Source of the DNA: Devosia epidermidihirudinis
GTDB lineage: Bacteria > Pseudomonadota > Alphaproteobacteria > Rhizobiales > Devosiaceae
NCBI RefSeq assembly: GCF_000971295.1
Contig: NZ_LANJ01000012.1
Location: 1 to 64,000, forward strand
DNA: 64,000 nucleotides
Direction of reading: 5' to 3'
The position numbers were made by a program, and so were the translations under genes. The stretch's first letter is position 1. Every line of letters starts with the position of its first letter. The notes under the pieces are model-generated. The model did not search any database. It saw only the letters and a program-made list of their open reading frames with translations, and was not told the DNA's origin. This document shows positions 2,008-60,359 of this stretch, one piece after another.

Positions 2008-2125
2008 GTACCCCCACCTAACCTCCCCCTGATAGGGGGAGGAACCTTACAGTGGATGGGGTCACATCCCACCAGAAACGCGATGCAGTCCCTCCCCCTC
2101 TGCAGGGGGAGGCTAGGAGGGGGTA
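2008..2125. repeat. paired palindrome element E1 (family E, REPIN-like)
   Basis: The left unit has CTAACCTCCCCCTG followed by AGGGGGAGGAAC. The right unit is its inverted form, CCTCCCCCT...AGGGGGAGGCTAGGAGGGGGTA. About 45 nt of non-conserved spacer separates them. Each unit is itself a hairpin and the two also pair with each other. It lies between the convergent 3' ends of dprA and murB. The remaining bases of the 1806-2153 gap hold no gene that I can see. Confidence 0.85.
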
Positions 2126-6773: not shown

Positions 6774-6890
6774 GCACCCCCTCCTAGCCTCCCCCTGAAC
6801 AGGGGGAGGAACCGGACAGCGGGTGAACCAAACGCGTGCCCCAAATGCGATCTGTCCCTCCCCCTATCAGGGGGAGGCTAGGAGGGGGTA
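6774..6890. repeat. paired palindrome element E2 (family E)
   Basis: A full family E pair: CTAGCCTCCCCCTG...AGGGGGAGGAACC on the left and ATCTGTCCCTCCCC...AGGGGGAGGCTAGGAGGGGGTA on the right, with about 45 nt between. It begins about 20 nt after the topA stop codon. Confidence 0.88.
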
Positions 6891-48145: not shown

Positions 48146-48170
48146 ACAGGCATCGCATTTCACCCACGAC

Positions 48171-48246
48171 GTCATTCCCGCGAAAGCGGGAATCCACCGT
48201 TGGGGTTGGATTGAAGAAGGGAGATTCCCGCTTGCGCGGGAATGAC
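48171..48246. repeat. paired palindrome, family F2
   Basis: GTCATTCCCGCGAAAGCGGG on the left and its near-complement CCCGCTTGCGCGGGAATGAC on the right, about 30 nt apart. This palindrome type is common in many Proteobacteria. Confidence 0.8.
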
Positions 48247-48296
48247 GCAGTGATGGTGGTCGGCCGCGTCGGAGTGGGAGTGCCGGTGAAGCAAGA

Positions 48297-48518: not shown

Positions 48519-48637
48519 ATACCCCCTCCTAACCTCCCCCTGAAAAGGGGGAGGAACAGATTTGAGGGCTTGGCGGAATGGCGCCCGCGAGTGGAGCGAG
48601 TTCCTCCCCCTCTCAGGGGGAGGTTAGGTGGGGGTAC
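48519..48637. repeat. paired palindrome element E5 (family E)
   Basis: Intact pair: CTAACCTCCCCCTG...AGGGGGAGGAACAG and TTCCTCCCCCTCTC...GGGGGAGGTTAGGTGGGGGTA, about 50 nt apart. Confidence 0.88.
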
Positions 48638-52957: not shown

Positions 52958-53075
52958 GTCCCCCCACCTAGCCTCCCCCTGAAAAGGGGGAGGAACTCGC
53001 GCGGCGGGTGGGTGCGACGATGCCCCAAGCTCGATCTGTTCCTCCCCCTGTCAGGGGGAGGTTAGGTGGGGGTAC
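52958..53075. repeat. paired palindrome element E6 (family E)
   Basis: Intact pair: CTAGCCTCCCCCTG...GGGGGAGGAAC and ATCTGTTCCTCCCCC...GGGGGAGGTTAGGTGGGGGTA. It starts 17 nt after the arginase stop. Confidence 0.88.
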
Positions 53076-53106: not shown

Positions 53107-53187
53107 TCGTCACCCTCGGGCTTGACCCGAGGACTCTGCACTTCCTGCATGTCTGAAGAACCCTCGGGTCGAGCCCGAGGGTGACGA
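53107..53187. repeat. paired palindrome, family F3 (copy a)
   Basis: TCGTCACCCTCGGGCTTGAC and, inverted about 40 nt later, GTCGAGCCCGAGGGTGACGA. A second copy is at 60277-60359. It abuts the stop codon of the HTH-citrate synthase gene. Confidence 0.8.
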
Positions 53188-53192
53188 TCCAG

Positions 53193-54326
53193 CTAGGTTG
53201 CGTCGCCCGCCCCCAGTCCCACATACTCCGCCCGTGGGCGCATCAGCTGGCCAGTGGCGACTTGCTCCATGGCGTGAGCCAGCCACCCAACAGTCCGGGC
53301 CATGGCGAAAAGCACCAGGGGCGCTTCTTTGGGCAGACCGAAGCTGGCGGCCATGGCGACGAGCGCGAAGTCAATATTCGGCTTCTCGCCGGTGATGCGC
53401 TCGGTGACCTCCTGTAACGCGGCGAAAGGCTCGGCCGGCTCGAAGATAGAGAGCAGTGCAGCGGCGCGTGCATCGCCATCTGGATAGAGCGGGTGGCCGA
53501 ACGCTGGTATCGACTGTCCCTGTGCGAGGCGGGCCACCACGGCGGCCTCTGCGCCCAGTGTCTCGGCTTCAAGAGCCAGCGCCTGCGCAGAGGCAGCCGC
53601 ACCGCCATGCAGCGGCCCGGTGAGCGCTGAAAGCCCCGCCAAAGTGCCTGCGGCCAACGATGCGCCCGTGGAGACGGCAACGCGTGTGGCGAAGGTTGAT
53701 GCGTTGAGTTCGTGATCGGCCAACAGCACCAGTGCCCGGCGGATGGCGTCAGCAGCGCGGGGGCGCTCCCATGTAGCGGCGAGCCTTTCATGTAACGAAC
53801 CCGCTACCGATCTGGTAAAGCCGCTGGCGATGGTGGAGAGCACCGACGCGGCTTCAATTTTGAGCACGGCACCTGAGCGACCAAAGGTCGGCACGTCACT
53901 GGCCGCGCGGCGCGCCAAGGCAACGAAGGCGGCTTCAAAGCCGGGCGTTTGTGCGACGTGACTCAGGTCACAGGTGACGGGATCACTCCCCCAGAGGAGT
54001 GCGGCGATCTCCTCCAGCGACATCGTGTCCGCCAAGTTCACCGCGTCGCGACCCCGATAGAGCAACCTGCCCTGCGCAATGGTGGAAATGGATGTCTGCA
54101 TCACAGGCTCGCCAAAGCGCATGGCGTCGACGGCGATGGTTGCCTGCTTGCGCCGACCAGCGGCGCGCTGGGCCAAACGGCGCACATCCTCGCCGCGATA
54201 GAGACTCTTGCGGCTATCGGCGGGATCTGGCCGCGCCGTGATGCGGCCACGGCTGACATTGGCATAAAGCGTCTGCGGCTGGGTGCCCAGCAGTTCCAGC
54301 GCTTCGCTCGCACTCAGCCAATCCAT
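53193..54326 (-). CDS. citrate synthase homologue fused to an N-terminal helix-turn-helix
   Basis: 377 residues. The first ~55 (WLSASEALELLGTQPQTLYA, NVSRG, RKSLYRGEDVRRL) are a MerR/excisionase-like DNA-binding domain. The rest is a citrate synthase fold keeping the active residues: His in GPLHGGA, His in PAFGHPLY, Arg in GDARA, Asp in KPNIDFAL, Arg in MARTVGW and Arg in MRPRAEYVG. It could be an enzyme that also regulates. It is divergent from a second homologue, with a palindrome in the shared 85-bp gap. Confidence 0.88.
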   Translation of the reverse strand: MDWLSASEALELLGTQPQTLYANVSRGRITARPDPADSRKSLYRGEDVRRLAQRAAGRRKQATIAVDAMRFGEPVMQTSISTIAQGRLLYRGRDAVNLADTMSLEEIAALLWGSDPVTCDLSHVAQTPGFEAAFVALARRAASDVPTFGRSGAVLKIEAASVLSTIASGFTRSVAGSLHERLAATWERPRAADAIRRALVLLADHELNASTFATRVAVSTGASLAAGTLAGLSALTGPLHGGAAASAQALALEAETLGAEAAVVARLAQGQSIPAFGHPLYPDGDARAAALLSIFEPAEPFAALQEVTERITGEKPNIDFALVAMAASFGLPKEAPLVLFAMARTVGWLAHAMEQVATGQLMRPRAEYVGLGAGDAT

Positions 54327-54347
54327 TGATCCTCACATTGATCATTT

Positions 54348-54363
54348 ACGTCAAGATTGACGT
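54348..54363. promoter_or_regulatory. palindromic operator candidate between the two citrate synthase genes
   Basis: ACGTCAA-GA-TTGACGT, a perfect 7-bp inverted repeat. The right arm contains TTGACG (54357-54362), which with TACCTT 16 nt later (54379-54384) forms a plausible plus-strand promoter for the next gene. A direct repeat ATTGATCCTCACATTGAT (54326-54343) lies beside it. The N-terminal HTH of the divergent protein is the obvious candidate to bind here. Confidence 0.5.
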
Positions 54364-54411
54364 CAACCTACGACGACCTACCTTAAGGCGCAACAACCAC
54401 AGGAGAGTTCG

Positions 54412-55494
54412 ATGAAAAGTGGTCTTGAAGACGTCGTTGCCGCCGAAACCAGGCTGTCCGATGTTGATGGCGCCCATGGCCGCCTGATCATTCGCGGGCA
54501 CTCGCTGGACGATCTGGTGGGGCACAGCACCTATGAGGACGTCATAGCGCTGCTATTCGATGGCTACTTTGCTAGCGAAGCCGACCTGCCCCGCGCGCTC
54601 GGCAAGGCGCGTAGCGAGGTGTTCGCGCATCTGGCCGTCGTTGACGCAAGCCTCCTCGCGCTGCCGCCGGTGGACGCTATGCGCGCGCTGCTGGCCCGAT
54701 TGCCAGATGGCGAGGATCTACCCTCGGCCTTGAGGCTGATTGCCGGCCCTGCAGTGTTCACCGCTGGGCTGATCCGGCTGCGTCAGGGGCTGGACGTTAT
54801 TGCGCCGGATGCATCGATGAGCCACGCCGCCGATACGCTGCGCATGACGCATGGCACCGTGCCGAGCCCGGAGCAGACTGCGGCGCTGGATCGCTATCTG
54901 ATGACGGTGTCCGATCACGGGCTCAACGCCTCGACCTTCGCCAGCCGTGTGGTTGCATCGACGCAGGCGGGCCTGACATCGTCGGTGTTGGCGGCGCTGA
55001 GCGCGCTCAAGGGCCCGCTGCATGGCGGCGCTCCGGGACCGGTGCTGGATGCACTGGATGGCGTTGGCTCGCCTGACAATGCCAGCGCCTGGCTCGAGGC
55101 CGCGTTGGCGCGTGGGGATCGGCTGATGGGATTTGGGCACCGCGTCTATCGCGTGCGTGATCCCCGTGCTGATGCATTGAAGACGGCTGTGCGTCTGCTG
55201 GCCAATGGCGGGGCCATCGACCCTGCCCGGCTGGCACTGGCCGAGGCGGTGGAAGCCGCGGCGCTGGATTTGCTGAAACGCAAGAAACCCGATCGGGCGC
55301 TGGACACCAATGTGGAGTTCTACACCGCGCTGCTGCTGGAAGCGCTTGGGTTTCCGCGTGAGACGTTCACGTGCGTTTTTGCCATGGGGCGGACGAGCGG
55401 GTGGCTGGCCCATGCGCGGGAACAGGCACTAACGGGGCGGCTGATCCGGCCGATGTCGGTTTATGTGGGGCCGAGCGTGGCGGTGGCGGCCTGA
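54412..55494 (+). CDS. citrate/methylcitrate synthase homologue
   Basis: 360 residues with no extra domain. Citrate synthase features: RGHSLDDLVGHSTYEDVIALL, GPLHGGAPG and GFGHRVYRVRDPRADAL. Two active-site positions differ from the family norm: the catalytic Asp (usual PNVDFY) is Glu here (TNVEFYTA), and the C-terminal RPRxxY is RPMSVYVG, losing the Arg that reaches into the partner subunit. Citrate or 2-methylcitrate synthase activity is therefore uncertain. GGAGAG lies 5 nt before ATG 54412. Confidence 0.85.
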   Translation: MKSGLEDVVAAETRLSDVDGAHGRLIIRGHSLDDLVGHSTYEDVIALLFDGYFASEADLPRALGKARSEVFAHLAVVDASLLALPPVDAMRALLARLPDGEDLPSALRLIAGPAVFTAGLIRLRQGLDVIAPDASMSHAADTLRMTHGTVPSPEQTAALDRYLMTVSDHGLNASTFASRVVASTQAGLTSSVLAALSALKGPLHGGAPGPVLDALDGVGSPDNASAWLEAALARGDRLMGFGHRVYRVRDPRADALKTAVRLLANGGAIDPARLALAEAVEAAALDLLKRKKPDRALDTNVEFYTALLLEALGFPRETFTCVFAMGRTSGWLAHAREQALTGRLIRPMSVYVGPSVAVAA

Positions 55495-55510
55495 TGGCCG
55501 AGGGATTGGA

Positions 55511-55608
55511 GTACCCCCTCCTAACCTCCCCCTGATAGGGGGAGGAATCCGCTCAGCGTTCGTCCAATCTGTTCCTCCCCCTTTTCAGGGGGAGGTTAGG
55601 AGGGGCAC
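55511..55608. repeat. paired palindrome element E7 (family E)
   Basis: Left unit CTAACCTCCCCCTG...AGGGGGAGGAA and right unit ATCTGTTCCTCCCC...GGGGGAGGTTAGGAGGGGCAC, with a short spacer of about 20 nt. The right unit and part of the spacer encode the last codons of the DUF559 gene. Confidence 0.88.
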
Positions 55609-55945
55609 TCTTCAGCGCATCCGCAACGAGCAGGTAGACGCCCTCGGGATTTCCCAACACATCGAGATTGGTGAAACGGACTACGCGATATCCGCGCTCT
55701 TCTATGTATGCCGTGCGCACGGCATCAGCGGCTAATCCGGCGTCAGAATAATGGCTGTCACCGTCTATCTCGAACGCCAGTTTCGCCCGTTTACAGGCGA
55801 AGTCGACGATATATGGGCCCACCGGAACCTGTCGGCGGAAATGCCAGCCGGATTGGCGGAAGGTATAGAGGATTTCCCAAAACCTGAGCTCTGCCGGGGT
55901 TGGTTCGCGGCGGAGTTTTCTTGCGAGTTCGGTTCGCTGTCCCAT
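55553..55945 (-). CDS. DUF559 (Vsr-like fold) endonuclease-like protein
   Basis: 130 residues. The core (RTELARKLRREPTPAE, LRFWEILY, WHFRRQVPVGPYIVDFAC, KLAFEIDGDSH, YRVVRFTN) is DUF559, related to the very-short-patch repair endonuclease fold with a likely D...E-x-D metal site. AGGAGG, 4 nt before ATG 55945, belongs to repeat E8, and about the last 17 codons are read from repeat E7. The gene thus sits exactly between two family E elements. Its biochemical role is unknown. Confidence 0.85.
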   Translation of the reverse strand: MGQRTELARKLRREPTPAELRFWEILYTFRQSGWHFRRQVPVGPYIVDFACKRAKLAFEIDGDSHYSDAGLAADAVRTAYIEERGYRVVRFTNLDVLGNPEGVYLLVADALKSAPPNLPLKRGRNRLDER

Positions 55946-56061
55946 ACCCCCTCCTAGCCTCCCCCTGAAAAGGGAAGGAACTTGATCCGTATCAGTCCAC
56001 GATCTTGCCCCAACCAAAATCTGTCCCTCCCCCTTTTCAGGGGGAGACTAGGTGGGGGTAC
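55944..56061. repeat. paired palindrome element E8 (family E)
   Basis: Left unit CTAGCCTCCCCCTG with a damaged second arm (AAAGGGAAGGAAC) and right unit ATCTGTCCCTCCCCC...GGGGGAGACTAGGTGGGGGTA. Its left edge touches the DUF559 start codon and carries the ribosome site. Confidence 0.85.
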
Positions 56062-56070
56062 TCTTCAAAA

Positions 56071-56101
56071 ACAAAAACGCCGGACCCAGGGGCCCGGCGT
56101 T
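56071..56101 (-). terminator. terminator of clpX
   Basis: Minus strand: ACGCCGGGCCC, loop, GGTCCGGCGT, then TTTTTGTTTTT. It lies 25 nt after the clpX stop and just right of E8. Confidence 0.9.
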
Positions 56102-56123
56102 TTCAATTCAGTCTGGTAGACCT

Positions 56124-57401
56124 TTATGCCCCGGCGGGGAGGTCTTCCTTTTTACGGTCGGAGTAGATGTAGAGCGGACGGACGTCCTTGCCCTTGACCA
56201 CTTCTTCCGAGATCACGACTTCTTCCACGCCTTCCAGCGATGGCAGGTCGTACATCGTATCGAGCAGGATCGCTTCCATGATGGAGCGCAGGCCGCGAGC
56301 ACCGGTCTTACGTTCGATGGCCTTCTCGGCAATCGCCTTGAGGGCATCCTCGTGGAAAGAAAGTTCGACTTCTTCCATCTGGAACAAACGCTGGTACTGG
56401 CGAACCAGGGCGTTCTTTGGTGCGGTCAGGATTTCGATCAGGGCCGCGATATCGAGGTCTTCGAGGGTCGCGAGCACTGGCAGGCGACCGATGAACTCGG
56501 GGATCAGCCCGAAGCGCACCAGATCTTCTGGCGCCACATCGGCAAGAATCTGGCCGACGCGACGGTCGTTCGGGTCCTTGACGGTGGCCGAGAAGCCGAT
56601 GCCCGAGCCTTCACCACGCGCCGAGATGATCTTTTCGAGGCCGGCAAATGCACCGCCGCAGATGAACAGGATATTGGTCGTGTCCACCTGCAGGAATTCC
56701 TGCTGTGGGTGCTTGCGACCGCCCTGGGGCGGAACCGAAGCCACGGTGCCTTCCATGATCTTGAGCAAAGCCTGCTGCACGCCTTCGCCCGATACATCGC
56801 GGGTGATCGACGGATTGTCAGACTTGCGGCTGATCTTGTCGACTTCGTCGATATAGACGATGCCGCGCTGCGCCTTTTCGACATTGTAGTCGGCGGCCTG
56901 CAGCAGCTTGAGGATGATGTTTTCCACGTCCTCGCCGACATAGCCGGCTTCGGTCAGCGTTGTGGCATCAGCCATCGTGAACGGCACGTCCAGAATACGG
57001 GCCAGCGTCTGAGCCAGCAGCGTCTTACCCGAACCAGTCGGACCGATCAGCAGGATGTTCGACTTGGAAAGCTCGATATCCTGGTTCTTGGACGAGTGGT
57101 GCAGGCGCTTGTAGTGGTTATGGACGGCCACGGAGAGTACGCGCTTGGCGCGGTACTGGCCGATAACGTAATCGTCGAGCACCTTGCAGATTTCTGCAGG
57201 TGTCGGCACGCCATCGGAGGACTTGACCATCGAGGTCTTGTTCTCTTCGCGGATGATGTCCATGCACAGCTCAACGCATTCATCGCAGATGAACACAGTT
57301 GGGCCGGCGATCAGCTTGCGAACCTCGTGCTGGGACTTCCCGCAGAACGAGCAATAAAGCGTGTTCTTTGAGGATTCGCCGTTCGTCGTGTCTTTGGACA
57401 T
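56124..57401 (-). CDS. clpX: ClpXP unfoldase subunit ClpX
   Basis: AAA+ unfoldase that feeds substrates to ClpP; in alphaproteobacteria it is needed for CtrA turnover. 425 residues: N-terminal zinc domain ([11 protein letters not shown]...CDECVELC), Walker A GPTGSGKT, Walker [11 protein letters not shown], and the ClpP-docking IGF loop region. Normal length. clpP lies 170 nt upstream on the same strand; an imperfect hairpin (GCCGGATCGGCC...GGTCGGTTCGGC) sits in that gap. Confidence 0.97.
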
Positions 57402-60276: not shown

Positions 60277-60359
60277 TCGTCACCCTCGGGCTTGACCCGA
60301 GGGTTCTTTTTGCCATTTCGCGAAGTGTAGAGCCCTCGGGTCAAGCCCGAGGGTGACGA
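60277..60359. repeat. paired palindrome, family F3 (copy b)
   Basis: TCGTCACCCTCGGGCTTGAC and, inverted about 45 nt later, GTCAAGCCCGAGGGTGACGA. Nearly the same as copy a at 53107. Confidence 0.85.

Follow-up and report, generated by a model that had tools for sequence, protein, structure and literature searches.

Palindromic repeats occur widely in bacterial genomes, and the RAYT family is, to our knowledge, the only one tied to them. In SBW25, several REPIN/RAYT enzyme lineages are reported to share one genome, each with its own repeat (PMC3116915). The CGTC-tagged REPs of Alphaproteobacteria were presented in a 2013 survey as hairpin dimers for which no dedicated transposase was apparent (PMC3733652). 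For the DUF559 family, there are reports of a role for Caulobacter VsrA, a DUF559 protein, in a Vsr-like repair context (PMC12907096) and of transposase/DUF559 segments as recombination hotspots in Legionella (PMC12308824). Open-access literature, searched without bioRxiv and mostly by title, yielded no link of DUF559 to REPIN, REP or palindromic repeats, though absence from such a search is weak evidence; nor did the open-access literature yield a joint treatment of repetitive extragenic palindromic sequences and very short patch repair. The motif CCCTCACCC returned only papers unrelated by title from the open-access repeat and palindrome literature, and the REP papers among the matches listed concern HUH enzymes, TnpA_REP, an IS or models.

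A locus resembling REPIN/RAYT in layout, with a different enzyme, lies in the window, by which we mean the whole 64 kb stretch of DNA analyzed (Table 1). As in REPIN/RAYT, repeats of a matching type border the enzyme gene, and these repeats are short palindromic inverted doublets dispersed between genes; whereas RAYT is an HUH Y1 enzyme (IS200/IS605-like), the enzyme here is a Vsr-fold DUF559 nuclease (PF04480).

Table 1. The DUF559 gene, the elements at its two ends and the other family E units of the window.
Feature	Position	Strand	Details
DUF559 gene	55553..55945	minus	130 aa; ATG at 55945; PF04480 E=2.7e-28
Pfam domain of the DUF559 gene	55619-55936		
Element E7	55512..55605		two inverted family E hairpin units, the left at 55512-55548 and the right at 55572-55605
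Element E8	55945..56060		two inverted family E units, the left at 55945-55981 (in part decayed) and the right at 56024-56060
Dispersed family E pair	about 2013..2121		
Dispersed family E pair	about 6779..6886		
Dispersed family E pair	about 48524..48632		
Dispersed family E pair	about 52963..53070		
Lone family E units	48056 and 48312		

The first-pass annotation had described two paired palindromes touching the ends of the DUF559 gene, and this holds: E7 and E8 abut the gene, with E8 in contact with the start codon (CAT at 55943-55945). The arms of both elements are 93% complementary, 35 nt apart in E7 (arm pair I3) and 56 nt apart in E8 (arm pair I2). As a strict dimer E7 spans 55515-55605, and E8, with its decayed left arm, is missed by the strict dimer detector. 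Among the 55 other window genes (crude gene call), 11 had a strict dimer at one end and none at both. At its 3′ end the DUF559 frame reads through the right E7 unit and stops in the E7 spacer, so the last residues of the protein are encoded by the repeat. Repeat-derived C termini (PSP..RGRG-like peptides) were also seen in many other DUF559 frames, among them L007, L009, L010, and L016, and protein annotation will be confused by them. The window also has two adjoining divergent genes, at 53193-54326 (minus strand) and 54412-55494 (plus strand), both citrate-synthase-like as judged from sequence. Rfam gave two matches over 54000-57000, both sub-threshold. PADLOC did not match the window DUF559 protein and gave weak partial matches for the other four DUF559 proteins of the same genome.

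The four pairs and two lone units elsewhere in the window fit the "about six more" family E elements counted initially. Strict hairpin dimers unmatched by the E pattern were also present, at 1854-1938, 48170-48247, 53107-53187, and 60277-60359. Across the 3.86 Mb genome the family E motif has 98 copies (52 + 46), with units dispersed as inverted doublets, and the same pattern read backwards as a control has none. The genome carries five DUF559 genes, each bordered by hairpin repeats on inspection by eye: two of family E (L002 and L005), two of family F (L003 and L004), and one of family G (L001). Family E is therefore one of several gene-repeat pairs, and the earlier picture of a single pair needs widening. 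The annotation's remark that no RAYT is present was borne out at genome scale, with no Y1_Tnp match at E 0.001.

We then examined repeats beside DUF559 in 80 DUF559-centered regions of 11.9 to 19.9 kb, 40 from genus and 40 from class/phylum searches, chosen by hand from the matches listed rather than at random. Detection of hairpin dimers used no family motif, and control genes came from a crude longest-ORF caller. The real sequence of these regions, 1.56 Mb in total, gave 90 strict dimers, and 0.31 Mb of Markov-shuffled sequence gave none. A dimer lay within 150 bp of 20/44 genus and 18/40 class/phylum DUF559 genes, compared with 41/599 and 22/532 other genes in the same regions, where direct DUF559 neighbors (75 and 80, respectively) were skipped; dimer density was 16-fold (genus) and 22.5-fold (class/phylum) higher near DUF559 than elsewhere. 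These counts supersede those of an earlier dimer detector, in which 88 loci yielded 22 dimers, every one of them next to the DUF559 match. In a separate flank test, 200 nt from one side of a gene was compared with the reverse complement of the other side, at a score of 16 or more. This was passed by 33/44 genus and 22/40 class/phylum DUF559 genes, against 0/548 and 3/486 control genes (3/1,034 together), 0/84 shuffles, and 0/30 ParE toxin genes, included as an accessory-gene control. By either test, 40/44 genus and 31/40 class/phylum DUF559 genes were positive, with nine of the latter failing. Y1_Tnp loci had been intended as a positive control, and 22 of 30 were usable; flanking inverted repeats were found at 1/22 and a dimer at 0/22, but many of these loci are probably IS200-type or other Y1 proteins, making the result uninformative on RAYTs. 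Twelve further regions, with DUF559 domains in long open frames, were considered as a negative control and dropped, since they proved to hold normal stand-alone DUF559 genes whose frames are long by chance; flanking inverted repeats at the same score occur in 10 of the 12, and all 12 lie outside the genus set described below.

DUF559 is carried by 60/75 genus genomes. From 58 genus genomes we collected 140 distinct DUF559 genes, leaving out about a dozen listed places and weaker places. Family-blind testing found inverted flanks at 97/140, a dimer in 260 nt at 77/140, and one or the other at 126/140, with 14 failing. By motif, units flank 137/140, on both sides in 91, and the same motifs placed a unit at 48/536 genus-region control genes and on both sides of 0/536; for family E alone the figures are 35/140 DUF559 genes and 11/536 controls. 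Motifs H and I were defined after viewing 27 unlabelled DUF559 flanks, which makes the family-blind counts the fair measure. The unit tail faces the gene in 209/256 classified unit sides, with 260 more unclear, a polarity expected anyway of outward-tailed dimers and hence unused as evidence. We also drew on named genomes, keeping the best 80 of 579 relatives (80 contigs, 82 DUF559 matches), a set that thereby leans to typical DUF559. Here 70/82 matches were positive by either test (flank 59/79, dimer 26/82) and 12/82 failed, and control genes showed inverted flanks in 1/403 and dimers in 18/403. By phylum, the passing matches were 60/69 in Pseudomonadota, 4/4 in Thermodesulfobacteriota, 3/3 in Chloroflexota, 2/2 in Planctomycetota (one of which, L266, has low-complexity flanks and may be a false positive), 0/1 in Nitrospirota, and 1/2 unplaced, a tally of 81 matches after one under 60 bits was dropped. 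The association between DUF559 and repeats is thus general, with four phyla among the passers. An absence of enrichment, the outcome named at the outset as speaking against a link, is excluded: enrichment is very strong and extends beyond the genus into other classes and phyla.

The repeats also follow the enzyme lineages. Motif labels for the 140 genus genes were G (63), E (35), H (16), F (15), I (8), and none (3), with E given precedence; 22 of its rows also fit the loose H motif. On a DUF559 tree of 138 rows, the labels ("none" included) require 11 changes, compared with a mean of 67.9 when shuffled and 0/200 shuffles as low. Labels G and I are each set apart from the rest by a single branch (support 84 and 100), and E, H, and F change 6, 6, and 3 times, on a tree of only 107 columns in which 60/135 inner branches are open. 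Inherited insertions were removed by keeping one row per label and genomic context, and the resulting 39 rows gave 8 changes against a shuffled mean of 18.6 and a minimum of 14 in 500. Collectively, the five repeat families track DUF559 lineages. This bears on the idea that hairpins act as insulators, such that a harmful nuclease gene is tolerated only where they end or dampen transcription and repeats accumulate by selection, the protein being inert on them. The units are indeed GC-rich hairpins directly upstream and downstream of the gene, and in many loci among the matches listed the start codon is within a few bases of the upstream unit. Any hairpin would do for this purpose, yet the repeat family tracks the DUF559 lineage across 38 crudely clustered genomic contexts, and E copies are more numerous in genomes with an E-type gene (see below); we consider insulation improbable.

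Several DUF559 lineages in one genome, each with its own repeat, is a further likeness to REPIN/RAYT. Unlike in that system, E-type DUF559 genes occupy 20 genomic contexts in the genus, and the GTAG tag is rare at DUF559 flanks (GTAG at 3/325 and CTAC at 4/325 hairpins). With the wrong enzyme and no GTAG tag, the DUF559 system works like REPIN/RAYT and is not a member of it. The DUF559-flank repeats share with the CGTC-tagged REPs, as surveyed in PMC3733652, the form of alphaproteobacterial hairpin dimers, but CGTC lies within 6 nt of only 16/325 and GACG of 24/325 DUF559-flank hairpins. An assignment of families E to I to the CGTC REPs was rejected on the uncommonness of this tag.

Orthologous sites differ between species in what they hold. 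At the citS-clpX site of the window, we compared 30 clpX loci, in which a citrate-synthase-like gene adjoins clpX in 11, is farther away in 3, and is unmatched in 16. Among the 11, the genome of the window has dimer-DUF559-dimer, and a single E dimer is present in G013, G012, and G064, where the detector overlooked the one in G064 and inspection by eye recovered it. No repeat occurs in G071, G020, or G040; dimers of other kinds occur in G036 and G022; and inspection by eye showed other palindromes in G043 and G025. In other species, another palindromic pair of GTCATTCCCGC type, presumably of the CGTC REP class, stands left of clpX (L414 and L418); the clpX site thus attracts several repeat families. 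A second site lies in a presumed hydantoin or pyrimidine breakdown operon, so named from its sequence. Of 15 loci compared, one junction was measurable in 12: DUF559 and units fill 565-637 nt in L090, L103, L107, and L112, and DUF559 is absent in eight. Among these eight, L100 (36 nt) and L102 (47 nt) are without any repeat, and the sole palindrome in L101 (94 nt) is of another kind. A short hairpin, perhaps a remnant, is retained in L091 and L098, and different sequence occupies the junction in L093, L105, and L106. The L091 dimer is absent from the 90.8% identical site in L105. At both compared sites DUF559 is intergenic, and not in an intron or a conserved coding target as would be expected of an EDxHD homing endonuclease.

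Crude screening gave 65 empty-site candidates among 648 pairs. Of 12 listed, five were clean by eye (L091 vs L105, L103, and L112; L401 vs L400; L390 vs L393), and the rest still had a unit; no clear target-site duplication, of the sort a MITE with a DDE transposase would leave, was named at the empty sites, including L105 for the L091 dimer. At strain level no clean empty site for an E cassette was found, the best G044 match being short and near a contig end and G063 being unmatched. A DUF559 query with its flanking E unit had 26-50 matches in each of six genomes. In G005, a DUF559 gene is flanked by two E dimers that each contain one of two alike transposase genes (344-1418 and 2155-3229 of L385), presumably IS110-type by sequence; opposite-strand E units 1,233-1,254 nt apart elsewhere in G005 suggest further copies.

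The strongest rival to a repeat-handling enzyme takes the repeats as recombination handles, with DUF559 a passenger or homing gene that homologous recombination in the flanking repeats exchanges among sites and strains, the repeats being spread by something else. The citS-clpX site fits this account, since the single E dimer of three relatives stands against dimer-DUF559-dimer here as if a cassette had recombined into a resident dimer, and so do the recombination hotspots reported for Legionella transposase/DUF559 segments (PMC12308824). It fails to explain why DUF559, and not any accessory gene, is bracketed (ParE 0/30, controls 3/1,034), or why cassettes occur at an operon site that is repeat-free in some relatives, and no other candidate enzyme was found, Y1 being absent from the genome. 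We therefore judge it unlikely, if less so than insulation.

Repeat number was also compared between genomes with and without the gene, as the first-pass annotation had proposed. In genus genomes at least 90% complete, family E was commoner with an E-type DUF559 (median 40 units, n = 30, range 1-164) than in the remaining genomes taken together (median 6 units, n = 38; P = 3.6e-5, one-sided), kinship being ignored in these counts, and in 12 of the 38 genomes without an E-type gene the DUF559 genes were only partly read. The nine of these 38 without any DUF559 had a median of 2 E units (0-44). Phylogenetic pairing leaves only 5 independent pairs, with which a sign test cannot reach 0.05. Exceptions occur in both directions: G044 (131), G064 (97), G012 (82), G049 (60), G067 (46), and G050 (44) have many E units and no cognate DUF559 among those read, and G046 (1), G040 (5), and G068 (6) have an E gene and few units. 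These exceptions count against our preferred explanation, as do the matches failing the family-blind test (14/140 genus, 9/40 class/phylum, and 12/82 named) and the lack of a defined target-site duplication. At class level, at least 3 copies of a generic motif were found in 19/38 genomes with a full-domain DUF559 (that of the window included), compared with 5/106 without (P = 2.8e-9, kinship ignored). Abundant repeats in genomes lacking DUF559, the other finding that had been named as adverse, are therefore not the rule, but individual cases such as G050 and G108 do exist. G108 has 35 generic repeat copies and no DUF559 match, and its congener G216 has both; the two are a natural case for the fate of repeats after gene loss.

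The enzyme itself is well conserved. Seven positions are invariant in 93 aligned DUF559 sequences (E19, F49, D61, G62, H65, D74, and R90), including acidic residues and a histidine, and dN/dS is 0.03-0.23 in 39/42 close pairs and undefined in 3; the gene is under strong purifying selection. An AlphaFold model of the window protein (mean pLDDT 91) matched in Foldseek the EDxHD homing endonuclease I-Bth0305I (3r3p_A, E 7.0e-6) and Vsr (1cw0_A, 5.0e-3; 1vsr, 6.1e-3), with which DUF559 shares its nuclease fold, and also NGO0050 (3hrl) and PvuRTs1I (4oq2). Profile matches were E 2.2e-4 to 3r3p and E 3.5e-38 to NGO0050, a solved DUF559 protein whose entry describes it only as endonuclease-like and has no repeat link in its title. 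When aligned to 3r3p with HMMER, residues E19 and D74 are shared, and D61 and H65 stand opposite N and W, respectively. Unlike I-Bth0305I and Vsr, the DUF559 here is a bare domain of ~107 aa, intergenic at the sites read and with no added DNA-binding region seen. Taken together, conserved residues, selection, and a modeled fold used elsewhere for homing and nicking point to a conserved and probably active nuclease. Strong purifying selection would also suit a host-serving controller, a nuclease that acts on the repeats without spreading them, by processing REP hairpins in RNA or by resolving or repairing hairpins in DNA, and the repair role reported for Caulobacter VsrA (PMC12907096) suggests that some DUF559 members may serve the host, which counts against our preferred explanation. 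Set against this, cassettes and dimers differ among species at the same sites, and the match of five lineages to five repeat families resembles selfish co-evolution, such that we give the controller little credence.

DUF559 mostly lies between repeat copies, each lineage with its own family, which suggests that it spreads or handles the repeats. By analogy with RAYT and REPIN, we find it fairly probable that DUF559 genes of this kind form a two-part mobile system with the hairpin repeats bordering them, with an unrelated enzyme that would bind, cut, or move the repeats. In such a system, the nuclease would recognize the tail-plus-hairpin unit of its own family and cut there, whether as folded single strand, cruciform, or duplex, and copies would then spread via host replication and repair, in a homing-like manner and with no transposase. 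Dispersed dimers would be its non-autonomous members, and the gene-bearing cassette its autonomous form. A broader proposal, which we hold to be evenly poised, is that DUF559 proteins are the first non-RAYT enzymes of palindromic-repeat mobility. The repeats would then form a REP superfamily in at least four bacterial phyla, often with a CCCTCACCC-like tail and a CCCTCTCCC-like hairpin in lineage variants, copied by a Vsr-fold endonuclease through homing-like cutting and repair without a transposase, each lineage with its private repeat population.

The strong, lineage-specific tie of repeats to a nuclease family of "unknown function" provides a candidate enzyme and predicted enzyme-repeat pairs. 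It concerns another group of repeats than those linked to RAYTs, beside the mainly alphaproteobacterial CGTC class, for which a dedicated transposase was not apparent in the 2013 survey (PMC3733652). For DUF559, carried by most genomes of the genus, the tie to repeats suggests a role.
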